DNA from: Aliidiomarina taiwanensis
Lineage (GTDB): Bacteria > Pseudomonadota > Gammaproteobacteria > Enterobacterales > Alteromonadaceae
Assembly (NCBI RefSeq): GCF_003987015.1
Contig: NZ_PIPQ01000001.1
Location: forward strand, 186,001 to 250,000
DNA: 64,000 nt
Direction of reading: 5' to 3'
Below are positions 1-10,211 of the stretch, one piece after another. The position numbers and the translations under genes were made by a program. The notes under the pieces were generated by a model, which made no database searches, had not been told where the DNA came from, and saw only the letters and a list, made by a program, of their open reading frames with translations. Numbering within the stretch: position 1 is the stretch's first letter; every line of letters starts with the position of its first letter.

Positions 1-1232
1 TACGCTGCCAAGTACCTGTTTTACTGGTTGATCCTGAATTGGCTGAGTCGGCAAAGTTACATATGTATGAGCAGCTAGGCGTTGGTTTTGAATTTACAGC
101 TGGCTCGAAAGAGCGGCAGGGTGAATTAAAGCAGCTGCGAGCAGATTGCCATGGGCCAGCGAGTGGCGCGGTGGCCTTGATGCTTAGCACCTCGGGTAGC
201 TCGGGCAGCCCCAAGGTGGTGATGCTTAGTGCGGCGAACCTGCAAAGTAATACCACAGCAATTAGCCAATACCTTCCTATTGAGCCTTCCGATGTAACCA
301 TTACCACATTACCGCTGCATTACAGTTATGGCTTGTCGGTATTAAATACGCACTTGGCTATGGGTGCGGCCATTGTGCTAACTGAGCAGCCCTTGATGTC
401 GCGTGAATTTTGGCAGCTGGCTCATAACCATAAAGTGACTTCACTGGCTGGTGTGCCCTTTCATTACCAAATGCTGCAAATGCTGCGTATTGAGCGTATG
501 GAGCTTCCAGCCATGCGTTATTTAACCCAAGCAGGCGGTAAGCTGGACGCCAAAACGGTGTCGTATTTTGCCCAATTAGCGGCAGACAAAGGCTGGCAGT
601 TTTTTGTTATGTATGGTCAAACAGAAGCGACCGCTCGAATGGCCTTTGTACTGCCAGACCTGATTGCTAAATATCCTGATGTGATAGGCCAAGCGATACC
701 AGGTGGACGTTTTGAAATACGAGATGTAGATACTAAAGAAACGATTACTATAGCAGGACAAGAAGGGCAGCTCTGGTACTTCGGCGACAATGTAATGTTG
801 GGTTACGCCAAAGAGCAGGCTCATTGGCAGCAGCCGCCAAAGCCTAACCACGCGTTAGAGACTGGAGATTTGGCGTGCTGGACTTCACAAGGGCTCGTAA
901 AGATTACCGGGCGCTTATCTCGGTTTATTAAAGTGAGAGGCAAGCGTCTTCAGCTCGATCATTTAGAGCAGAAATTAAATGAGCAGGGCTTTACAGTGTA
1001 TTGCTGTGGTCACGATGACCAATTGTTTTTTGCACTCGCCATGTCTGACAGCCAAACAGGGAGTAGTCAGGCTCAGCTAGCGCTTACTATGGTTAAACAG
1101 CTGGTAACGGAAGAGCTGCAAATACATCCTAGCCTGTGGGCAGTCGTACAGCTGAAAGAAATACCGTATTTAGCTAGTGGCAAAGTTAACTACACTGCCT
1201 TGTTAGCGCGATGCATAGAGATGAGGGAGTGA
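1..1232 (+). CDS. AMP-forming acyl/aryl-CoA ligase (5' truncated by window edge)
   Basis: The frame is open from base 3 without a stop, so the N-terminus lies outside the window; a TTG at 39 is not a credible start. The visible part has the adenylate-forming enzyme motifs in order: the phosphate loop STSGSSGSPK, the YGQTEATARM motif, the GDLACW motif with KITGRLSRFIKVRG at the hinge, and a C-terminal LASGKVNY whose Lys would be catalytic. Such enzymes activate a carboxylic acid as acyl-AMP and pass it to CoA or a carrier protein. LuxE-like and LuxC-like genes follow with a 3-base gap and then a 4-base overlap, suggesting that the activated acid is reduced or transferred. The substrate cannot be read from the sequence. 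Confidence 0.85.
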   Translation, partial: RCQVPVLLVDPELAESAKLHMYEQLGVGFEFTAGSKERQGELKQLRADCHGPASGAVALMLSTSGSSGSPKVVMLSAANLQSNTTAISQYLPIEPSDVTITTLPLHYSYGLSVLNTHLAMGAAIVLTEQPLMSREFWQLAHNHKVTSLAGVPFHYQMLQMLRIERMELPAMRYLTQAGGKLDAKTVSYFAQLAADKGWQFFVMYGQTEATARMAFVLPDLIAKYPDVIGQAIPGGRFEIRDVDTKETITIAGQEGQLWYFGDNVMLGYAKEQAHWQQPPKPNHALETGDLACWTSQGLVKITGRLSRFIKVRGKRLQLDHLEQKLNEQGFTVYCCGHDDQLFFALAMSDSQTGSSQAQLALTMVKQLVTEELQIHPSLWAVVQLKEIPYLASGKVNYTALLARCIEMRE

Positions 1233-1235
1233 AGT

Positions 1236-2312
1236 ATGATAACGGATTTACTTGAGGCTTCACCTTATAGCGTTGCGAGTGCTGATAAAAAACGCTTATT
1301 GCTGCGTGGTTTGCAAGAACTAACAGTGTACCACCAGCAAAATTGCTTAGCCTATCATCAACTTTTTAATGAGCCCGTAGAACCTTTTACGGATATAAGC
1401 GCTGTCCCCTTCTTAACGGTGCCCTTATTTAAACAGCGCCCTTTGAAGAGTATTCCAGTAGAACAAGTTTTTAAAGTGCTGACCTCGTCCGGTACGACAG
1501 GGACGGTACCTTCTCGTATTTACTTAGACGCCGACACCGCTAAGCTGCAAAGTCGTGTGCTAGTGAAAATAATGCAAGAGTGGTTAGGTAAACAACGTTT
1601 ACCCATGCTGATATGGGATAGCCCCAGTGTTATTAAAAGCCGTGACTCGTTTACAGCCCGAGGAGCAGGAATACAAGGTTTATCGTTTTTAGGCAGGCAC
1701 CATACCTACGCATTAAACGACGACATGTCGCTAAACATTGAAGCCATTAACACCTTCTTTGAACGCTTCGGTAGCGGGCCGGTATTTATGTTCGGATTTA
1801 CCTTTATGGTATGGAAGTTTGGTGTACAGGCATTAAAAGAGCAGGGCTTAAAGTTTGACTTTCAAAATGCTGTATTGATTCACAGCGGTGGCTGGAAGAA
1901 GTTGGAAGATGAAGCGGTGACAGCTGAAACTTTTAATTCAAAAACGGAAGACCAACTAGGTCATGTACGGGTACATAACTTTTATGGCATGGTGGAACAA
2001 GTAGGCTCTATTTTTGTTGCTTGTGAAGAAGGGCATTTACATTGCCCGTCGTATGCCGATGTTTTAGTGCGTGAGCCTGGAAACTGGCAAGTAGTGCCCG
2101 AAGGTAATGTTGGCGTATTACAAGTGCTGTCGTTATTACCCAAAAGCTACCCTGGACATAGCCTGCTCACGGAAGACAGAGGGCGAATATTGGGTGAAGA
2201 CAACTGTAACTGTGGCCGCAAAGGAAAGTATTTCGAGGTGTTAGGCCGCATGGAAAAAGTAGAAGCGCGTGGTTGCAGCGATACCTTTGAACGTACAGGA
2301 GCTGGCCAATGA
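1236..2312 (+). CDS. LuxE-like acyl-protein synthetase
   Basis: A 358-residue member of the LuxE acyl-protein synthetase branch of adenylate-forming enzymes. The phosphate loop LTSSGTTGTVPSR lies near residues 85-97. NFYGMVEQVGSI occupies the place of the usual acyl-adenylate-binding motif, and NCNCGRKGKYFEVLGRMEK near the C-terminus resembles the hinge region. LuxE activates a fatty acid and hands the acyl group to LuxC; the downstream gene is LuxC-like and overlaps by 4 bases, so the pair is very probably translationally coupled. No luciferase genes are present in the window, so a role in light emission is not supported. A role in modifying a surface glycan or making a lipid-like group is inferred from the neighbours. 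Confidence 0.8.
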   Translation: MITDLLEASPYSVASADKKRLLLRGLQELTVYHQQNCLAYHQLFNEPVEPFTDISAVPFLTVPLFKQRPLKSIPVEQVFKVLTSSGTTGTVPSRIYLDADTAKLQSRVLVKIMQEWLGKQRLPMLIWDSPSVIKSRDSFTARGAGIQGLSFLGRHHTYALNDDMSLNIEAINTFFERFGSGPVFMFGFTFMVWKFGVQALKEQGLKFDFQNAVLIHSGGWKKLEDEAVTAETFNSKTEDQLGHVRVHNFYGMVEQVGSIFVACEEGHLHCPSYADVLVREPGNWQVVPEGNVGVLQVLSLLPKSYPGHSLLTEDRGRILGEDNCNCGRKGKYFEVLGRMEKVEARGCSDTFERTGAGQ

Positions 2313-3481
2313 CAGTACAAGTTATAAACCCAGTTACTACGAAAGGGCAGTTAGCTCCTTTTGCAGACAGCAAAGCGTTAGCGTACTGCAAAGCTTTATC
2401 GCAGGCATTATTAACGGAGCCCCCTGCGCGGGAGCATTCCGACTTAATGGCATTAGGCTTTTGGTTACGCCCGGCCAATATTGAACGCATGTTAACACCA
2501 TATAAAGAGCTAAAACTTCGACCGCTCGGCCATGTATTTCATGCTGCACCCGGAAACGTGGATAGCCTATTTGTGTATTCAGGTATTTTAAGTGTGCTTT
2601 GCGGCAACCTGAACACCATTCGACTTTCGGATAGAGCTGGCGGCAGTGCCCAAGTACTTTGTGAGGTGGTACAAGGGTTAACAGCAGAACACCCTGAAGT
2701 GAGCGCCCGCTTTCAAATTATCCGCAGCCCGCGTGATGCCTGTGAACTTATTCAGCTGCAACAGCAGGTAGATGGCCGAGTGCTGTGGGGCTCCGATGAA
2801 GGCATACAAGCATTACGACAACGGACCATTCCCGCCCATGCCCGCGAGCTCACCTTCGCCAATAAATTGTCGTTTGCAGTAATCGATATTGACGCAGTGC
2901 TGCAGGCCACGCCAAAAGAGCTGGAGCAATTAGCGAGTAAATTTGCCCGCGACAACCTAACCTTTGCTCAGCAGGCATGCTCATCGGCCAAGGTGGTGAT
3001 ATGGCACGGTAACTTGTTCAATAAGGAAAAAGCCCAAGACGTTTTTTGGCTGGCGCTAAGTGCATTTCTAACTTCCGAACAAGGCCAAGGTAAGTACCCA
3101 CTTACTGAAAGCGAGCACTATCGCGCGCTAAACAACGCGCAAGACATGGTTATGTCGGGCTTAGCGAGCCAAGTGAAAACCTGCGGTGGTTACATTCGCA
3201 TGGCTGTTGATAGCCTGCACCATGCCCTTTTAGGTGAACACCAAGGCTGTGGTTTGTTTGCAGAGCTACATACAGATAAGCTCAATGACCTTCATTCACA
3301 GCTAACGCCTCAGCACCAAACCATGTCGTATTGGGGCTTAATTGAGAACGATGTAATGGATTGGCTCGCAACTTGCTTGGTAGGTGTAGACCGCGCCGTT
3401 CCTATAGGCAACGCTCTAGACTTTAATGAGGTTTGGGATGGTGTTGATTTAATAAGGGCGTTTTCGAGAGTGGTGGTTTAA
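2309..3481 (+). CDS. LuxC-like acyl-CoA reductase
   Basis: A 390-residue protein of the LuxC fatty-acid reductase family within the aldehyde dehydrogenase superfamily. HAAPGNVDSLFVYSG (about residues 79-93) is the conserved nucleotide-binding region, and the candidate acyl-accepting Cys is C224 in FAQQACSSAKVV. LuxC takes an acyl group from LuxE or CoA and reduces it with NADPH to an aldehyde. Together with the preceding ligase and LuxE-like protein this gives a complete acid-to-aldehyde route. The stop at 3479-3481 is followed by a sharp drop in GC content, which marks the border to the AT-rich polysaccharide genes. The acyl substrate is unknown. Confidence 0.82.
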   Translation: MTVQVINPVTTKGQLAPFADSKALAYCKALSQALLTEPPAREHSDLMALGFWLRPANIERMLTPYKELKLRPLGHVFHAAPGNVDSLFVYSGILSVLCGNLNTIRLSDRAGGSAQVLCEVVQGLTAEHPEVSARFQIIRSPRDACELIQLQQQVDGRVLWGSDEGIQALRQRTIPAHARELTFANKLSFAVIDIDAVLQATPKELEQLASKFARDNLTFAQQACSSAKVVIWHGNLFNKEKAQDVFWLALSAFLTSEQGQGKYPLTESEHYRALNNAQDMVMSGLASQVKTCGGYIRMAVDSLHHALLGEHQGCGLFAELHTDKLNDLHSQLTPQHQTMSYWGLIENDVMDWLATCLVGVDRAVPIGNALDFNEVWDGVDLIRAFSRVVV

Positions 3482-3611
3482 GAATTTTGCTCTCTCAATA
3501 GAACATCTATGTTTTTATAGAGTCAAATTTCACTACATTAGGATGATAATTAAACTCGGAATAACTCAGGTTAATAGGAATTATGGTTGCTCTTTTAATT
3601 TAGGAAAAATT

Positions 3612-4769
3612 ATGAAAACAATATGCTTCGCTGGTTTGGTATCAGAAACTAATCTAGGAGATATTGCGATTTTAAAATCAACAGAGTATTTATATAAAAA
3701 AGCATTACCCAACATTGAAAAATTTGGCTTCAAACGATTAAATATCCAGCATGAAAATGTTAAAAGTACATTGCTACATAAATTAAAAATTTCGGCCCTG
3801 GAAAAGTTAAATATAGATGCGAGTAAAGTTAAAATACACAAGTTGATATCTGACTCGAAAAAGCAATATAGAAATGAGCTTGGGGGAGTGGACTTAATAG
3901 TAATTGTTGGTGGTGGACTAATAAAGTATAAATACCAACGTTTTTTTATGTACTTAGTTGCTTTAATCGAAGTTGCAGAAGAGCTAAACATTCCAGTAGT
4001 ATTAAACTCAGTTGGAATAGAGGGTTATAGTAAAACTGATCGACGCTGCCAAATGCTTAAAAAGGCATTAAATAATCCTACAGTTAAAAGTATAACTACA
4101 CGTGATGATATTAATACCCTGAAAAATCTATATATGCTTCCTACCAGTAGCAAGCTCATAGGGAAAGCGGCTGATTCAGCTGTATATTCTAATGAGGCTT
4201 ACAATGTTAACAAGAAACAAACTGATGTATTTGGTATCGGGCTAGTGAGAGGGGGTATATTTAAGGATAATGAGCGGGACTTGCCTCCTGAGCAATTGGC
4301 TGAATTTTATTATCAGTTAATATCTGAAATGGAAAAGCGTGACATTAAATACAAGCTATTTACTAACGGTTTAAAATCTGACAGTGAATTGCTTCCACTG
4401 ATTATGAAAAAATTAGGTAGAACCAAGCTAGAATTAATTGAGCCAAAGGAAGACATTGACCTAGTGCAAGTTATATCGAGCTTTACTACAGTTATCGCAG
4501 CAAGGTTACACGCTAATATTATATCCTACTCTTTAAATATCCCGTCTGTTGGCCTAGTTTGGAATAATAAACTGAAATTGTTCGGAAAGGATATTGGGTA
4601 TCCTGAAAGGTTTTTTGACTATAAACACTTTAATGTGAAAACTATTCTAGATACTGCTATTCAAGCAAATAGTGAAGGGTATGATCAGAAGTACATGAAG
4701 GAATATAAATCGTCAGCTAAATTAAATATAAATAAAGTTATAAACAAGTGGCTGGCGGGTGAATTATGA
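3612..4769 (+). CDS. Polysaccharide pyruvyl transferase family protein
   Basis: I place the start at ATG 3612, which has an AGGA 7-8 bases upstream and begins MKTICFAGLVSETNLGD; an upstream in-frame ATG at 3543 would add 23 residues unlike the family. The 385-residue product has the GDxAIL-type N-terminus, VIVGGGLIKYK in the middle and IAARLHANIISYSLNIPSVGL near the end, which are hallmarks of the PS_pyruv_trans (WcaK/CsaB-like) family. Members add ketal pyruvate to glycan residues, and many have unproven acceptors. The gene is markedly AT-rich compared with the preceding LuxC-like gene. It overlaps the following cytidylyltransferase gene by 4 bases. Confidence 0.8.
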   Translation: MKTICFAGLVSETNLGDIAILKSTEYLYKKALPNIEKFGFKRLNIQHENVKSTLLHKLKISALEKLNIDASKVKIHKLISDSKKQYRNELGGVDLIVIVGGGLIKYKYQRFFMYLVALIEVAEELNIPVVLNSVGIEGYSKTDRRCQMLKKALNNPTVKSITTRDDINTLKNLYMLPTSSKLIGKAADSAVYSNEAYNVNKKQTDVFGIGLVRGGIFKDNERDLPPEQLAEFYYQLISEMEKRDIKYKLFTNGLKSDSELLPLIMKKLGRTKLELIEPKEDIDLVQVISSFTTVIAARLHANIISYSLNIPSVGLVWNNKLKLFGKDIGYPERFFDYKHFNVKTILDTAIQANSEGYDQKYMKEYKSSAKLNINKVINKWLAGEL

Positions 4770-5494
4770 GTGATAAAAACATAGCTATTATTTTTTCTGG
4801 TGGTGTTGGTGCCAGAATGAACTCAAAGGCAAAGCCTAAGCAATTTTTAGAGTTACATGGTAAGCCAATTATCGTGTACACATTAGAGTTATTCGAAAAC
4901 CACCCGGAAATTGACGCCATTGTGATCGCTATTTTAGCCGATTGGGTGGATTATATGAATGAGCTTATTGTTCGCTATCAGCTAACTAAAGTGGTTGCTG
5001 TGGTTGAAGGAGGGAAAACTGGTCAGCTATCCATATATAACGGCTTGCTAAGTGCAACAAATTTATTTTCAGCAGATTCAACAGTTCTGATTCATGACGG
5101 GGTAAGGCCGCTTATTAATCAACAAATTATTAGCGCAAATATTGATCAAGTCAAAAAAAGTGGTAATGCAATAACTACTTCTCCCACCATTGAAACTTTT
5201 GTAGTAGTGGATGACAACATGTTGGTACAAGATGTGCCAAGCCGAAAACATTCACGCTTAGCTAAAGCACCTCAAAGTTTTGTTTTAAGTGACATTCTTG
5301 CTGTTCACCAGCAAGCACTCCAGGATGGTGTTTTAGACTCAATAGATTCGTGTACATTGATGAGCCGATACGGCTATAAAATTACTTTGGTAGAAGGTCC
5401 GGTGGAGAATATAAAGATAACAACACCCACTGACTACTTTATGTTTCGCGCAATTGTCGAGTCACGTGAAAACAGCCAAATTTTTGGAGGGTAA
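4766..5494 (+). CDS. TarI/ISPD-type cytidylyltransferase (probable CDP-ribitol or other CDP-polyol synthase)
   Basis: A 242-residue IspD/TarI-family nucleotidyltransferase. The N-terminal CTP-binding signature reads SGGVGARMNSKAKPKQFLELHGKPI (split as SGGVGARMNS and KAKPKQF), followed by VEGGKTGQLSIYNGL and LIHDGVRPLI. The last motif has HDGVRP where housekeeping IspD usually has HDAARP, which favours the TarI/ISPD branch that makes CDP-ribitol from ribitol-5-phosphate and CTP. Its place between glycan genes and two genes before a LicD-family transferase supports the same reading. Housekeeping IspD normally sits beside ispF, which is absent here. The exact polyol is an inference. It overlaps the upstream gene by ATGA. 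Confidence 0.75.
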   Translation: MSDKNIAIIFSGGVGARMNSKAKPKQFLELHGKPIIVYTLELFENHPEIDAIVIAILADWVDYMNELIVRYQLTKVVAVVEGGKTGQLSIYNGLLSATNLFSADSTVLIHDGVRPLINQQIISANIDQVKKSGNAITTSPTIETFVVVDDNMLVQDVPSRKHSRLAKAPQSFVLSDILAVHQQALQDGVLDSIDSCTLMSRYGYKITLVEGPVENIKITTPTDYFMFRAIVESRENSQIFGG

Positions 5495-5497
5495 AGT

Positions 5498-6544
5498 ATG
5501 GTTCAGTATCACTCCTCACTGGTAAAAAATGACTTAGATGAAATTCTAGAACAAAGCTTGCCTTGGCAAAAACTGAAAAACACAACTGTTTTAGTTACCG
5601 GGGCTACAGGAATGCTTGGTTCTTACGTTGGCTTCACTTTGCTGTACTTAAACGAACAGTTTAGCTTAAATATTAAACCCGTCTTTTTAGCTCGCAGCGA
5701 AAAAAAACTTGAGCAAACCTACGGCAAGGAACTAAGTAAAGCAAAAACCTTAGTTCAAGATGTGTGCAAGCCAATTAGTTTTAATGGCAAAGTTGATTAC
5801 ATTTTTCATGCCGCGGGTGCAGCAAGCCCTAATTATATATTAAGTGATCCTGTAGGTATTATTAATGCCAATGTCATAGGTACGCAACAAGTATTAGAGT
5901 TATCCCGAACTCATCAAGCTATTAATACGGTATTCGCTTCTACACGTGAAGTTTATGGGAGTGTCGAAGGGAAATATAATATTAATGAACATGATATGGG
6001 GGTCTTAGACCCTTTAAACCCTCGGAACTGTTACCCTGAAAGTAAACGTTTAGCCGAAGCCTTACTAATGGCTTACCACACACAATATGAAGTTAACTTT
6101 AATAGCGTGCGCATAGCACACACGTACGGGCCAGGCATGCAAATTTCCGGTGATGGTCGTGTTATGTCAGATTTTATTAATGATGCAGTTAATGGTCGTG
6201 AAATACTTTTAAAAAGTGACGGGCAAGTGGAAAGAGCCTTCTGCTATATCACCGATGCAGTGACAGGTATTTTCAGAGTCATGCTAGAAGGAAAGCCAAC
6301 TCAAGCTTATAACTTATCCAACGAGAATGAGCCAGTTCGCATAATTAGCTTAGCAAACCTTTTGCAAGAGCTTACTAATAGTGACAAAGGAGTTAAAGTT
6401 GAAACCGGCTATTGTCGAGCTGGGTATACAAACTATGAACGCACTGCATTGAACACAAATAGATTAACTAGTTTGGGATGGAAGCCTATAGTAAGCCTGA
6501 GAGAAGGGCTAGCGAGAACATTAATGGCAATGGGTGGAAAATGA
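5498..6544 (+). CDS. Extended SDR: NAD-dependent epimerase/dehydratase
   Basis: A 348-residue extended short-chain dehydrogenase. The nucleotide-binding motif VTGATGMLGSYVG is near residues 33-45, ASTREVYGS carries the Ser/Thr of the active site, and the catalytic YPESKR (Tyr-x-x-x-Lys) follows. The general look is that of UDP-glucuronate decarboxylase or dTDP-glucose dehydratase-like proteins. It follows the cytidylyltransferase gene by 3 bases with GGAGGG just before its ATG. A co-directional SDR next to TarI is reminiscent of the TarJ or Bcs1-type ribulose-5-phosphate reductase partner, but an NDP-sugar substrate is equally possible. Substrate not determined. Confidence 0.78.
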   Translation: MVQYHSSLVKNDLDEILEQSLPWQKLKNTTVLVTGATGMLGSYVGFTLLYLNEQFSLNIKPVFLARSEKKLEQTYGKELSKAKTLVQDVCKPISFNGKVDYIFHAAGAASPNYILSDPVGIINANVIGTQQVLELSRTHQAINTVFASTREVYGSVEGKYNINEHDMGVLDPLNPRNCYPESKRLAEALLMAYHTQYEVNFNSVRIAHTYGPGMQISGDGRVMSDFINDAVNGREILLKSDGQVERAFCYITDAVTGIFRVMLEGKPTQAYNLSNENEPVRIISLANLLQELTNSDKGVKVETGYCRAGYTNYERTALNTNRLTSLGWKPIVSLREGLARTLMAMGGK

Positions 6545-6545
6545 A

Positions 6546-7367
6546 ATGATAGATAAAAAACTCATGCCAGAACAAGAAAATATTTCTCAATATAATGCTG
6601 AGGGTACTAACCTTAGAAAAGCGCAGTTACGCTTACTTGAAATCTTATTAGTATTCGATCGGGTTTGTAAAAAGCATGACATCAAGTATTTTTTGAGTGG
6701 TGGAACCTGTTTAGGAGCCATAAGGCACGGTGGCTTTATTCCATGGGATGATGATATAGATATAGATATTTGGCATACCGATTATAAAAAGCTTGAAAAG
6801 GTTTTACAGGCTGAGTTGCCTGATTGGGTGAAATTACAAAACTCAAAAACAGATAAAGGTTACTATCATTTTTATATGAGATTAGTTGATGCTAACTCTC
6901 ACCTTGTTTATGAAGATAACTTTGTAAGAAATAAAATGAAATATACAGGTCTTTTTATAGACTTGTTACCTATAAATCACTCATTTTCATTTCGCGTTCG
7001 ACAAGTGCTTAATAGAAAGCTTCGCTTGGCTTATTCTATGTATAGGGTAGGGGCAAAGAAAAGGCATAAGCAGTACATTGCATACTTCACATTGCCTATT
7101 TATATGACACTGTGGGGATTATATACACTTGTATCAAAATTTGCGTCAAGTGAAAAAGTTTCTCATGCAGTCCCTTCTATACACAACCCAAAGTTAAAGT
7201 ATTCGAACTGCTATCCGCCAGTAGAGATAAAGTTTGAAGGGTATGAGTTTTTAGGTCCGGCAAAACCACATGAGTATTTAAAAGAATTGTATGGTGATAA
7301 TTACATGACAATTCCCCCTAAAAACAAGCGTTTTATTCATGCAAGCGACATTAAATTTGAGAACTGA
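6546..7367 (+). CDS. LicD-family phosphotransferase
   Basis: The start is ATG 6546, two bases past the previous stop; a GTG at 6534 would add four residues. The 273-residue product carries the LicD signature LSGGTCLGAIRHGGFIPWDD followed at once by DIDIDIW, whose acidic residues are thought to bind metal and the CDP-linked donor. LicD proteins move phosphocholine, and the fukutin/FKRP relatives move ribitol-phosphate, from CDP donors to glycans. With a TarI/ISPD-type enzyme two genes upstream, a polyol-phosphate transfer is the best inference. No licA/B/C choline genes are visible. Base composition is strongly AT-rich, like its neighbours. It probably acts at the cytoplasmic face of the membrane. 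Confidence 0.82.
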   Translation: MIDKKLMPEQENISQYNAEGTNLRKAQLRLLEILLVFDRVCKKHDIKYFLSGGTCLGAIRHGGFIPWDDDIDIDIWHTDYKKLEKVLQAELPDWVKLQNSKTDKGYYHFYMRLVDANSHLVYEDNFVRNKMKYTGLFIDLLPINHSFSFRVRQVLNRKLRLAYSMYRVGAKKRHKQYIAYFTLPIYMTLWGLYTLVSKFASSEKVSHAVPSIHNPKLKYSNCYPPVEIKFEGYEFLGPAKPHEYLKELYGDNYMTIPPKNKRFIHASDIKFEN

Positions 7368-7403
7368 AATGTTACTGAATAAAGTATCTAAATTGAGGTT
7401 ATT

Positions 7404-8429
7404 ATGAAACATGGACTCTTAAGGTATGATCCAAAAGATGGTGTGCGAAAAAACATTGGTGACTATATTCAAAGTATGGCCGCAAAGCAATTTTTAAATA
7501 ATGTCGATGTTTTGGTCGAAAGAGAGCAACTGCACAATTATGACGGTGAGCATATAAAGTTAGTTATGAACGCTTGGTGGATGCACATTCCAGAGAATTG
7601 GCCTCCGTCTGATAAAATAACCCCTCTTTTTATATCATTCCATATTACCCCGCGCGTAGCCGAAAGAATGCTGACCGAAAAATCGGTACAATATTTTAAA
7701 AAACATGCTCCTATTGGATGTCGTGATAAAGGGACACAAAAAATACTAGAAGGCTTTGGAATTAAAACCTATTTTTCAGGCTGTTTAACTTTAACCTTAG
7801 GTAATTCTTATAAACATAAACCTGAACAGGGGAAGGTGCTTATTGTAAACCCACAATTCACACGCCCGACATTAAAAAGCCCTTTTAACTTTATTAAGTC
7901 ACTTGTTTCTTGTTTTATAAATTACAAAGCAATAAAGCATATAAGTAAAAAACTTTACCTTTCAAACTCTTTACTTTCAATGATGAAAACTACGTATTTC
8001 TATAATTCGTATAGAAAACAGTTTTCTGACGAATTACTTATGGACGCACAGTATCACAACCATGGTGTTAATATTAAAAAGTTCAAAAACGAGGCTGAGC
8101 GTTTTGAATATACGGATAAATTATTGGAAGAGTACAGTACTGCAAGCTTAATAATTACAAGCAGGTTACATGCAGCTTTACCCTGTGTTGCCATAGGCAT
8201 ACCAACTATATTTATATATGGTGAGGATATTCCTCGCAGTTCAGGTAGGTTTGATGGCTTACTTGAGCATGTGAACTGCTTGCAATATGTGAATAAAAAG
8301 TGGGTGGGGCTAAATCAATTTGAAGCTAAGGGCATAATTGATAAAAACACCAATATAGAAAACAAAAATACGCATTTTGAAATATCTCAGCAAATGTCTG
8401 AAAAGGTTAGAGAGTTTTTTAAAAGCTAG
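7404..8429 (+). CDS. Second polysaccharide pyruvyl transferase-like protein
   Basis: A 341-residue protein beginning MKHGLLRYDPKDGVRKNIGDYIQS, with the family's N-terminal GDYIQSMAA pattern and LIITSRLHAALPCVAIGIPTI near residues 248-268 (the RLHA motif). It differs strongly from the first pyruvyl transferase-like protein in this locus, so the two probably act on different acceptors. AGGTT lies just before the ATG. The gene is AT-rich and ends in a poorly conserved tail. An 11-bp inverted repeat follows and separates it from the convergent cytidylyltransferase gene. Pyruvyl transfer is the family function; the acceptor is unknown. Confidence 0.75.
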   Translation: MKHGLLRYDPKDGVRKNIGDYIQSMAAKQFLNNVDVLVEREQLHNYDGEHIKLVMNAWWMHIPENWPPSDKITPLFISFHITPRVAERMLTEKSVQYFKKHAPIGCRDKGTQKILEGFGIKTYFSGCLTLTLGNSYKHKPEQGKVLIVNPQFTRPTLKSPFNFIKSLVSCFINYKAIKHISKKLYLSNSLLSMMKTTYFYNSYRKQFSDELLMDAQYHNHGVNIKKFKNEAERFEYTDKLLEEYSTASLIITSRLHAALPCVAIGIPTIFIYGEDIPRSSGRFDGLLEHVNCLQYVNKKWVGLNQFEAKGIIDKNTNIENKNTHFEISQQMSEKVREFFKS

Positions 8430-8442
8430 ATGGGCATTATAA

Positions 8443-8480
8443 GCTAGAAGATATCAAACTAAAAGAGGTTATCTTCTAGC
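8443..8480. terminator. Inverted repeat between convergent genes, possible terminator
   Basis: GCTAGAAGATA at 8443-8453 is the exact reverse complement of TATCTTCTAGC at 8470-8480, with a 16-base loop. It lies between the stops of the two convergent genes. No clear T-run follows on either strand, so intrinsic termination is possible but not certain. Confidence 0.45.
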
Positions 8481-8488
8481 GCTGGTCA

Positions 8489-8905
8489 TTACTCCCCAAA
8501 CACATCGTTTATTTGTTTAAAAACCAATACTGCTTGTTTGATAGCGCTTGATGAAATGTCTTTGGTACGGTCTAAATACACCACTTCGCAGAGGTCGCTT
8601 AAGTCGTCGAATTTGCCCTGCCAGTCGTTGCCCATTACAAACGTATCAATCTCATGTTTAGCAATATCTTGTCTTTTTTGTTCCCATGATGATTCGGGAA
8701 TGACGAGATCGACATAGCGGCATGCTTCTAAAATAGCGACTCGTTGTTCGTATGGTACGAGCGTTACTTTACCTTTGCTTTCATTAAACTCATCGGTGGA
8801 AACCGCTACGATGAGCCTATCGCCTAATGCCTGTGCACGTTTTAGCAAGTTCACATGGCCAACATGAAAGAGGTCGAAGGTTCCGTACGTGATTACGGTG
8901 GTCAT
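8489..8905 (-). CDS. TagD/TarD-type glycerol-3-phosphate cytidylyltransferase
   Basis: A 138-residue cytidylyltransferase of the usual TagD length. It begins MTTVITYGTFDLFHVGHVNLL, with the YGTFDLFHxGH nucleotide-binding motif, and has SSSAIK near the C-terminus where the family has the RTxGISTT-like loop, here DRTKDISSSA. TagD makes CDP-glycerol from CTP and glycerol-3-phosphate for teichoic acids; Gram-negative homologues supply glycerol phosphate to capsules or O-antigens. An AAGG precedes the ATG. It is encoded against the direction of its neighbours and has a more ordinary base composition than the AT-rich block. A related sugar or polyol phosphate substrate cannot be excluded. Confidence 0.85.
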   Translation of the reverse strand: MTTVITYGTFDLFHVGHVNLLKRAQALGDRLIVAVSTDEFNESKGKVTLVPYEQRVAILEACRYVDLVIPESSWEQKRQDIAKHEIDTFVMGNDWQGKFDDLSDLCEVVYLDRTKDISSSAIKQAVLVFKQINDVFGE

Positions 8906-9011
8906 TAAAAAGCTACCTTTTTGTCGTGTTTATTGTGCTAGCTATTATTGTGTCTCTTCTGCTATCGGCCTAAAGGCTAAGTTATTTAGGGCTTTTAAAC
9001 TAGTATGACAA

Positions 9012-9041
9012 ATGACTATAGTGGCTGCATTAGGATATGAT
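9012..9041 (+). promoter_or_regulatory. Weak candidate promoter for the second LicD gene
   Basis: ATGACT at 9012-9017 and TATGAT at 9036-9041 are spaced by 18 bases and sit 35 bases before the LicD start. The -10 is good and the -35 matches four of six consensus bases. It falls in the 171-base gap between the divergent TagD-type and LicD genes, where a promoter is expected. Confidence 0.35.
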
Positions 9042-9076
9042 TCATTTCAGCTTTTACTGTGACTAAAGGGGAACTG

Positions 9077-10009
9077 ATGTCTCTTCGTAAGCAAGTGATT
9101 TTATTTGGTGCGAGCCTAGGTGGTGAAAATTTCATCAAACATAATAGCCAAGTGGACGTGATAGCTTTTACTGACAATGACTCCTCTCGCTGGGGAACTA
9201 CGCTTGCCGGGCGGCCAATAATTAGCCCCTTGAATATAGCGCAGCACGACTTTGACGAAGTGATTATAACCAGCCAATGGCAAGATAGTATTAAAAACCA
9301 ACTTATTAATGAGTTGAGTATTCCTGCTGAAAAGGTTGTGATTCCCAATAAAACTTACCTAAAGCCTGCTATTAAGCCTTTCACGCACGCTGCTACGTTG
9401 GCTTTTGCTCAACAGAGCTTAGGGATTATTAGCGAGTTTTTAGCTAAACACGGCATTTATGCGATGGTTGATTCGGGTACGGCCCTTGGCATAGTGCGAG
9501 ACGGTGATTTAATACCTTGGGATGATGATATTGATTTTGCAATCAATGCCAAAAATTTTGATAAGGCTGTTGAATTAACGGCTCAATTACTCGCTGCTTT
9601 ACCACAAATACCTGAAGCGCACTGGGTGGCAACAGTGATTACTTTAGCGGGAGAAGATGTTTGCATAAACTTGGATTTAGAAAGTAATGACCATGACACT
9701 ATAAAAGATATCGAAATTAGTTTGCAAAAGAGAACTGAGCGTAATGGTCGTTCTGAGTTGGACTCTTCAGCGGGTATTTTTGATGCTCCTGCGGTTCACT
9801 TTCAAACCCCTCAGCCAATAAAATATTGTGGCTATACGGTTTATTTGCCTGATGAAGTTGAAAGCTTTTTGACCTTTATGTATGGCGATTGGCGTAGCCC
9901 GCAGCCCAATACAAGCTTGCAAGATTATGATAATCGTTATCAACAAACGAAAGCGGACCCTAGATCTCAACAAGTAACGAAACGCAAAATACAGAGGGTT
10001 AAAAACTAG
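9077..10009 (+). CDS. LicD-family phosphotransferase with N-terminal nucleotide-fold domain
   Basis: The start is ATG 9077, preceded by AAAGGGG at good spacing; a GTG at 9059 is less likely. Residues 1-95 form a separate domain beginning QVILFGASLGGENFI and continuing VIAFTDNDSSRWG, a Rossmann-like fold often attached to glycosyl- or methyltransferases in surface-glycan loci. From about residue 110 comes a LicD domain with MVDSGTALGIVRDGDLIPWD and DDIDFAI. The family transfers phosphocholine or polyol phosphate from a CDP donor. The divergent TagD-type gene suggests that CDP-glycerol could be its donor. It is not a close copy of the other LicD protein here. It closes the polysaccharide region. 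Confidence 0.8.
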   Translation: MSLRKQVILFGASLGGENFIKHNSQVDVIAFTDNDSSRWGTTLAGRPIISPLNIAQHDFDEVIITSQWQDSIKNQLINELSIPAEKVVIPNKTYLKPAIKPFTHAATLAFAQQSLGIISEFLAKHGIYAMVDSGTALGIVRDGDLIPWDDDIDFAINAKNFDKAVELTAQLLAALPQIPEAHWVATVITLAGEDVCINLDLESNDHDTIKDIEISLQKRTERNGRSELDSSAGIFDAPAVHFQTPQPIKYCGYTVYLPDEVESFLTFMYGDWRSPQPNTSLQDYDNRYQQTKADPRSQQVTKRKIQRVKN

Positions 10010-10134: not shown

Positions 10135-10211
10135 AGGGGTGTAGTTCCAATTGGTAGAACGGCGGTCTCCAAAACCGACGGCTGGGGGTTCGAGTCCCTC
10201 CACCCCTGCCA
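10135..10211 (+). tRNA. tRNA-Trp (anticodon CCA)
   Basis: The 7-bp acceptor stem pairs AGGGGTG with CACCCCT, then G discriminator and encoded CCA. The anticodon loop contains CTCCAAA with anticodon CCA, and the T-arm reads GGGTTCGAGTCCC. It is very similar to enterobacterial tRNA-Trp. It stands alone, with its own promoter, between the polysaccharide locus and rimI; such an edge position is typical of islands, but I see no integrase or repeated 3' end. Confidence 0.97.

Follow-up and report, generated by a model that had tools for sequence, protein, structure and literature searches.

Two proposed CDP-polyol/LicD pathways at the variable end of a probable pseudaminic-acid flagellin glycosylation island in Aliidiomarina taiwanensis

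LicD-type transferases place choline phosphate on lipopolysaccharide (LPS) and teichoic acid. Their relatives FKTN and FKRP place ribitol phosphate on dystroglycan. Here we analyse a locus with two LicD proteins, LicD1 and LicD2, and two cytidylyltransferases, one IspD-like and one TagD-type. It lies near the start of a 64,000-nucleotide stretch of the Aliidiomarina taiwanensis genome (the window; contig NZ_PIPQ01000001.1, positions 186,001 to 250,000), downstream of genes for pseudaminic acid (Pse).

Several described systems resemble parts of this locus; each is cited for the sections of its report that concern these genes. The HS5.18/HS5.17 pair of Campylobacter jejuni HS:5 joins CTP and fructose-6-phosphate into CDP-6-D-fructose, and reduction with NADPH then gives CDP-6-D-glucitol (PMC10918830). 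Mnp1/Mnp2 of Streptococcus pneumoniae 35A follow the same logic to CDP-mannitol, and that report counted about 400 gene pairs of PF01128 with PF01370 (PMC10918830). The Aeromonas Group II polar flagellin island has pseBC apart from pseFGHI, along with genes for an acyl carrier protein (ACP), a fabG-like orf2, orf3, luxE and luxC (PMC7874193). Phosphotransferases are encoded in its variable part; the AH-3 glycan is Pse-linked with a phosphorylated N-acetylhexosamine (PMC7874193). TagD and TagB in Enterobacterales flag-2 regions have been read as a teichoic-acid-like glycan (PMC6993521), and tagD in a Geobacillus flagellin glycosylation island as pointing to a phospholipid derivative (PMC5109656). 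Clostridioides difficile type A and Pseudomonas aeruginosa PAO1 b-type flagellins carry a phosphodiester-linked small molecule on the flagellin sugar, and for C. difficile type A a CDP-activated donor and a TagF-like transferase were proposed (PMC10714395, PMC11833859).

The window locus probably encodes two CDP-polyol/LicD pathways and forms the strain-variable end of a Pse flagellin glycosylation island. From the position of its genes, the target seems to be the sugar coat of the flagellum rather than the outer-membrane lipid sugar. Phosphodiester decoration of flagellin and TagD in flagellin regions are known already; we propose as new the occurrence of LicD with two CDP-polyol pathways in a Pse flagellin island. 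Among the publications listed by a literature search, with subscription journals mostly outside its coverage, none joined LicD with a flagellin island. The genes are as follows, in window coordinates.

39..1232, + strand: AMP-dependent acyl ligase (PF00501, 126.4 bits); the gene starts upstream of the window, at L006:15775
1236..2312, + strand: LuxE-like acyl-protein synthetase (PF04443, 158.1 bits)
2309..3481, + strand: LuxC-like acyl-CoA reductase, final gene of the conserved island core (PF05893, 88.1 bits)
3543..4769, + strand: PST1, PF04230 protein, first gene of the putative acquired module (84.1 bits; alternative start at about 3612)
4766..5494, + strand: IspD-like cytidylyltransferase of an SDR-paired clade, motif HDGVRP (PF01128, 143.7 bits; NF001183, 171.1 bits against a cut-off of 166; tree)
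5498..6544, + strand: extended short-chain dehydrogenase/reductase (SDR), proposed NADPH-dependent CDP-ketose reductase, HS5.17-like (PF01370, 141.5 bits; 8V4G, E 1.4e-35; residue table)
6534..7367, + strand: LicD1, proposed polyol-phosphate transferase of the IspD-like/SDR pathway (PF04991, 119.6 bits, full domain; FKRP 6kaj, E 9.8e-8; tree)
7404..8429, + strand: PST2, PF04230 protein, last gene of the module (70.5 bits)
8489..8905, - strand: TagD-type glycerol-3-phosphate cytidylyltransferase (TIGR01518, 175.7 bits against a cut-off of 165.4; 1coz, E 2.1e-48)
9059..10009, + strand: LicD2, with an N-terminal nucleotide-binding-like domain and a LicD catalytic core, proposed glycerol-phosphate transferase (PF04991, 49.9 bits; family context)
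10135..10211, + strand: tRNA-Trp, boundary of the variable region (ARAGORN)

A preliminary description of this DNA had named four of these genes: an IspD-family enzyme with HDGVRP in place of HDAARP, a TagD-type enzyme and two different LicD proteins. All four are intact open reading frames (ORFs) where that description placed them, and the two cytidylyltransferases do belong to different families, each with a LicD nearby. It did not mention the SDR gene, which lies between the IspD-like gene and LicD1 and overlaps the latter. Also absent from it were the two genes of PF04230 (a family named polysaccharide pyruvyl transferase), which flank the IspD-like/SDR/LicD1 genes on both sides, PST1 overlapping the IspD-like gene; the upstream pse and lux genes; and the divergent transcription of TagD and LicD2. 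No choline genes were seen, an absence judged from the locus with no genome-wide search made for them.

In pathway A, the IspD-like enzyme would couple CTP to a ketose phosphate (step 1). The SDR would then reduce the CDP-ketose with NADPH, forming a CDP-polyol, a hexitol or a pentitol (step 2). LicD1 would transfer the polyol phosphate to a glycan hydroxyl (step 3). In pathway B, TagD would make CDP-glycerol and LicD2 would transfer glycerol phosphate. The acceptor would be a Pse derivative that PseB, C, H, G, I and F make and Maf attaches to flagellin. Between luxC and the tRNA-Trp gene at 10135 we found no glycosyltransferase, which makes a Pse derivative the most likely acceptor; the LicDs probably act on the derivative itself or on its acyl group. 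Gene identities, clade membership, residue conservation and neighbourhood conservation were computed directly. We infer the substrates, the donors, the acceptor and the action of both pathways on flagellin.

The context is that of a Pse/flagellin island. Directly upstream of the locus stand PseF, PseG, PseI and PseH, all four above their NCBIfam cut-offs, a FabG-like gene, the AMP-ligase, LuxE and LuxC. A 78-amino-acid ACP-like ORF (L006:15555-15791) resembles Aeromonas orf1 by eye; Pfam gave no match. PseB and PseC, which also pass their cut-offs, are encoded on contig 12 (C12) with two Maf proteins (PF01973 over cut-off) and three flagellin genes (one scanned, two recognised by the same N-terminal sequence), together with a FliD-like gene and, by eye, a FliS-like gene. 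Relatives of LicD2 (E <= 1e-12) occur in 49 of 295 genomes of the family, two of them as partial hits. Besides LicD2 itself there were 51 matches; after four rows were dropped (two pieces of one G402 place, and partial hits in G314 and G391), 47 loci were fetched. Pse, Lux, Maf or flagellar genes lie within about 10 kb in 44 of the 47, and TagD in 17. The same-strand neighbour within 300 bp is LuxC in 15, TagD in 15 and PseI in 8. G204 has the order PseC-PseB..LicD2-PseI-PseG-PseF-flagellin, G183 a single run from flagellin through pse and lux genes to Maf and LicD2, and G172 the order AMP-ligase-Maf-LuxE-LuxC-LicD2-TagD. For relatives, the names SerB, TatD, FlaG, FliS and FlrABC and, in L130, PseB and PseC rest on inspection of the sequence by eye.

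It could be that both pathways are real but decorate LPS or a capsule, and that the adjacent Pse genes also serve that polymer. We consider this unlikely. In its favour, Pse can also be placed on LPS or capsule, glycerol phosphate is common in O-antigens, and the IspD-like/SDR pair occurs in capsule-like plasmid clusters with Wzz or EpsG genes. In G253, a LicD2-TagD pair (94% and 82%) lies on a contig other than that of pse/luxE, beside two GT2 glycosyltransferases. However, the only PseB over the family cut-off in the genome is the contig 12 copy that sits with PseC, Maf and flagellin, and flagellin, FliD, FliS or Maf lie within about 10 kb in 22 of the 47 LicD2 loci. A scan of ten window proteins, from the AMP-ligase to LicD2, showed no polymerase, flippase or glycosyltransferase. 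The preliminary description had argued from lpxH for a surface glycan; the gene context points instead to a Pse flagellin glycan.

Pathway B rests on TagD and LicD2. TagD matches the Bacillus subtilis enzyme GCT (1coz) over residues 2-126. LicD1 and LicD2 are the only LicD matches in the genome at E <= 0.001, and both have PF04991 over cut-off and a WDDDxD motif, although the LicD2 alignment covers only profile positions 3-52 of 227. The motif is present in 46 of 49 LicD2-family ORFs; two of the other three are short fragments and one is unresolved. FKRP is the only solved structure that either LicD matches by sequence below E 0.001, LicD2 at E 2.4e-4 over 126-276; for both LicDs this is a sequence match to the FKRP catalytic domain. 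Residues 9-97 of LicD2 match 3nkl weakly (E 0.069). A single-sequence structure model of LicD2 (mean pLDDT 36) was too poor and was not used.

TagD and LicD2 co-occur. TagD (E <= 1e-25) is found in 37 of 49 LicD2-positive genomes and 78 of 246 others (Fisher, 1.6e-8), and among 17 genomes of the genus TagD occurs in five, LuxE in four and both in four (Fisher, 0.002); these values overstate independence because the genomes and loci share ancestry. At a syntenic site in G258 and G259 (beside SerB- and TatD-like genes, by eye), TagD adjoins a PF04464 CDP-glycerol transferase instead, a family with no match in the A. taiwanensis genome at E <= 0.001. In its N-terminal domain this protein resembles LicD2, at 38% and 42% across about 70 residues. 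The strongest argument for CDP-glycerol as the LicD2 donor is this exchange of one catalytic domain for another next to an unchanged TagD. The G258 site also holds a second PF04464 protein of 492 amino acids (L068:5526-7004), so this relative in the genus may make a longer chain of glycerol phosphate. A search of plasmids for LicD2 relatives at E <= 1e-15 gave no match.

Pathway A begins with the IspD-like enzyme. A housekeeping ispD is present elsewhere in the genome (C1:724239-724913, E 1.1e-50 to Escherichia coli IspD, motif HDAARP), so the window enzyme is a paralogue. In a tree of 69 cytidylyltransferases it falls in a group of 61 (support 96/84), apart from both a TarI clade (100/100; four solved chains and L053) and an IspD clade (100/97), with long branches separating the three. 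The housekeeping IspD groups with that of E. coli. The support of 96/84 holds only with L161 included; without it the next fork has 81/82. Of the other 60 group members, 58 had been selected for SDR adjacency (57 within 200 bp in named loci, plus L051), and the remaining two, L129 and L161, lie about 2 kb from an SDR. The closest relatives are in Mangrovibacterium marinum (70%), a Balneolales metagenome-assembled genome (64%) and Labilibacter sediminis (62%). HDGVRP is found in 44 of 57 SDR-adjacent enzymes, which explains the motif in the window enzyme. By sequence, the enzyme is a member of a clade separate from TarI and IspD and mostly SDR-paired. It neither groups with the housekeeping IspD nor is the only such gene in the genome, and a housekeeping identity is ruled out by the tree and the separate ispD.

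The preliminary description took this enzyme for a TarI/ISPD type. It would then convert ribitol-5-phosphate to CDP-ribitol, and the LicDs would add ribitol and glycerol phosphate to a surface glycan such as LPS. We regard this as quite improbable. The enzyme does pass NF001183 ('ribitol-5-phosphate cytidylyltransferase'), its best solved relatives are TarI-type, and both LicDs match FKRP. However, a true TarI of the same order (L053) scores 354.6 bits with NF001183, lies inside the TarI clade and is followed by a TarJ-like zinc-type alcohol dehydrogenase (PF08240/PF00107), whereas the window enzyme lies outside that clade, in a Pse/flagellin island. The partner here is an extended SDR, and no TarJ-type dehydrogenase stands beside it (TarJ elsewhere in the genome was not searched for). 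Tree position, SDR partner in place of TarJ and the gap in NF001183 score are our grounds for rejecting the TarI/ISPD identity. Ribitol is not supported because the enzyme is outside the TarI clade and SDR-paired. What the description set out has a real counterpart at L053:8593-13232 (genome G074, 2.5 Mb, same order), where the true TarI and TarJ-like pair lies near a LicD.

The second enzyme of pathway A, the SDR, matches HS5.17 (29% identity). It retains the HS5.17 catalytic residues and charged CDP/NADP contacts R56, K60, E140, R164, Y167, K171, R208, D212 and R233, and also Y295. We compared 81 SDR relatives, comprising the 80 best of 238, kept as named loci, and L051. E140, R164, Y167, K171 and R208 occur in all 81, Y295 in 79 and D212 in 78. 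On the side of the NADP 2'-phosphate, R56 occurs in 75 and K60 as Lys in 62 and Arg in 11; R233 occurs in 72. The polyol pocket differs from that of HS5.17 in a fixed way: M139R in 78, T195A in 81 and Q196H in 80. Conservation in the 80 loci is partly due to selection, because the scan used patterns from the window SDR subclass. We propose that the SDR is a putative NADPH-dependent CDP-ketose reductase of an uncharacterised subclass; with its R/A/H pocket it is not classed as a CDP-6-glucitol enzyme.

Among the 80 best SDR loci, an IspD-like gene is found in 62, within 200 bp in 57, and a LicD in 49, within 3 kb in 45. The order PF04230-IspD-like-SDR-LicD recurs in Mangrovibacterium (L091) and Vibrio rotiferianus (L121, with a shorter LicD ORF), and L115 has LicD, IspD-like, SDR, PST1 and PST2 relatives together. 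In L130 the module lies between PseB-, PseF- and PseI-like genes and PseC- and PseG-like genes. In the LicD tree, LicD1 and the LicD of the Balneolales module L092 are sisters (100/99). On plasmids the pair stands beside proteins annotated as CDP-glycerol glycerophosphotransferases, or beside LicD; from these neighbours it seems to feed polyol-phosphate transferases of two families.

That the SDR is a UXS-type decarboxylase or epimerase, with pathway A yielding a CDP-sugar and no CDP-polyol, is disfavoured and very improbable: UXS1 (2b69) is its best-scoring solved relative (E 2.2e-38, slightly better than HS5.17), but the window SDR has Arg and Lys at the HS5.17 NADP 2'-phosphate positions, where we read the UXS1 strand as ending in Asp (our own placement; the printed alignment puts this Asp five columns away), has Asp212 at the cytosine contact (Asn in UXS1) and Arg139 before the catalytic Glu (Ser in UXS1), and belongs to a set of loci with a cytidylyltransferase so often adjacent and with LicD or annotated CDP-glycerol glycerophosphotransferases as neighbours.

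At E <= 1e-20 the SDR marker of the module is found in one of 17 genomes of the genus, that of A. taiwanensis, which makes the module look recently acquired. The five genes at 3543-8429 have a G+C of 33-40%, and this low-G+C module looks like a recent acquisition. TagD has 43% and LicD2 42%; the upstream pse and lux genes have 42-49%, the downstream RimI, SerB, TatD and peptidase genes 48-50%, and window positions 16000-64000 have 48%. A complete rRNA operon (16S, 23S, 5S; L006:6134-10916 and 11387) lies directly upstream of pseF. With the tRNA-Trp gene at the other end, the region is framed by RNA genes. Promoter and terminator sites found by a scan of the locus were no commoner than in shuffles and were not used.

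In gut Clostridia, L093, L094, L098 and others have the SDR with LicD and/or PF04230 neighbours and no IspD-like gene detected in the locus; the cytidylyltransferase there is either encoded elsewhere or of another family. In genome G033, a 441-amino-acid ORF starting with a TagD domain (L051:8963-10288) adjoins a LicD and lies about 4 kb from an IspD-like/SDR pair. A Parabacteroides distasonis plasmid (L252:4286-9237) encodes in a row an annotated IspD/TarI cytidylyltransferase, an NAD(P)-dependent oxidoreductase, a ribulose-phosphate 3-epimerase and two CDP-glycerol glycerophosphotransferase family proteins, which suggests a pentulose-derived CDP-polyol there. This hint was not carried over to the window, since the plasmid SDR has a T/Q-type pocket and is 31% identical to the window SDR; a blastp search with the plasmid epimerase found no relative in the 80 SDR loci.

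Beyond the points credited above to other readings, several results weigh against two CDP-polyol/LicD pathways acting on flagellin. The window SDR has R, A and H at M139, T195 and Q196, and differs at five further HS5.17 contacts (N34T, T98A, S100P, F226K and T227S), so its reaction may differ from that of HS5.17. An IspD-like gene is missing within 200 bp in 23 of the 80 SDR loci and from the whole locus in 18, some cut by contig ends. A NeuB-family gene occurs in five of the 80 (L092, L115, L130, L135 and L140) and in none of 13 controls, a small set of LicD loci from the same order that lack the pair; the difference is not significant. TagD is missing at E <= 1e-25 from 12 of the 49 LicD2-positive genomes, two of them with partial LicD2 hits, and within about 10 kb from 30 of the 47 LicD2 loci. 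In the LicD tree, with the LicD2 family sampled at every third ORF, module LicDs are not one clade (six label changes), and five of six TagD-adjacent LicDs from other families of the order form their own clade outside the LicD2 family. Because of this scatter and separation the tree was rejected as a donor test.

A more specific version of our proposal is tentative and on balance doubtful. It holds that two different polyol phosphates directly cap flagellin-bound Pse, and that each has a CDP-polyol pathway and an FKRP-like LicD transferase of its own. Pathway A would then make a so far undescribed CDP-polyol via R/A/H-pocket CDP-ketose reductases common to Bacteroidota, Bacillota, Balneolota and Vibrio, sometimes nonulosonic-acid-linked there too. 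If the two-pathway proposal is true, LicD-type transferases also build teichoic-acid-like phosphodiesters on flagella, and the locus offers a testable source for phosphate-bearing flagellin glycans and a compact bacterial model for FKRP-type chemistry. It would also add to IspD and TarI a further clade of IspD-fold enzymes, distinct from both and widely distributed. An 'IspD/TarI' label next to LicD does not alone imply ribitol.

Set beside the known systems, the locus shares with HS5.18/HS5.17 and Mnp1/Mnp2 the adjacent PF01128 cytidylyltransferase and PF01370 extended SDR (PMC10918830). The window SDR also has the catalytic and charged CDP/NADP contacts of HS5.17 and resembles it in an N-terminal extension, with 31 residues ahead of HS5.17 position 29. 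It differs in its 29% identity, its M139R/T195A/Q196H pocket and its LicD partner. By analogy, the window island appears to work like the Aeromonas Group II island, though we do not class it as a member. Both, as far as the Aeromonas account goes, have pseBC and pseFGHI in two regions, a fabG-like gene, an AMP-synthetase, luxE and luxC, and variable transferases (PMC7874193). Unlike the arrangement in that account, the window has no Fgi-1-type glycosyltransferase after luxC; a PF04230 gene comes next, then the CDP-polyol and LicD genes, and maf is beside flagellin here, not after pseI.

The flag-2 (PMC6993521) and Geobacillus (PMC5109656) regions likewise have CDP-glycerol genes inside a flagellin glycosylation region. 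They use TagB, LtaS or PGP synthase where LicD stands here, and the cited sections describe no second CDP-polyol pathway. The C. difficile and P. aeruginosa decorations are threonine derivatives, unlike the polyol and LicD proposed here (PMC10714395, PMC11833859). The parallel to the dystroglycan pathway drawn in the preliminary description holds for a CDP-polyol and an FKRP-like transferase and no further. As in TarI/TarJ and mammalian ISPD/FKTN/FKRP, an IspD-fold enzyme would make a CDP-polyol for a LicD/FKRP-type transferase; unlike them, the window enzyme belongs to a separate clade, has an SDR partner and stands in a Pse-glycan context (PMC4873967).

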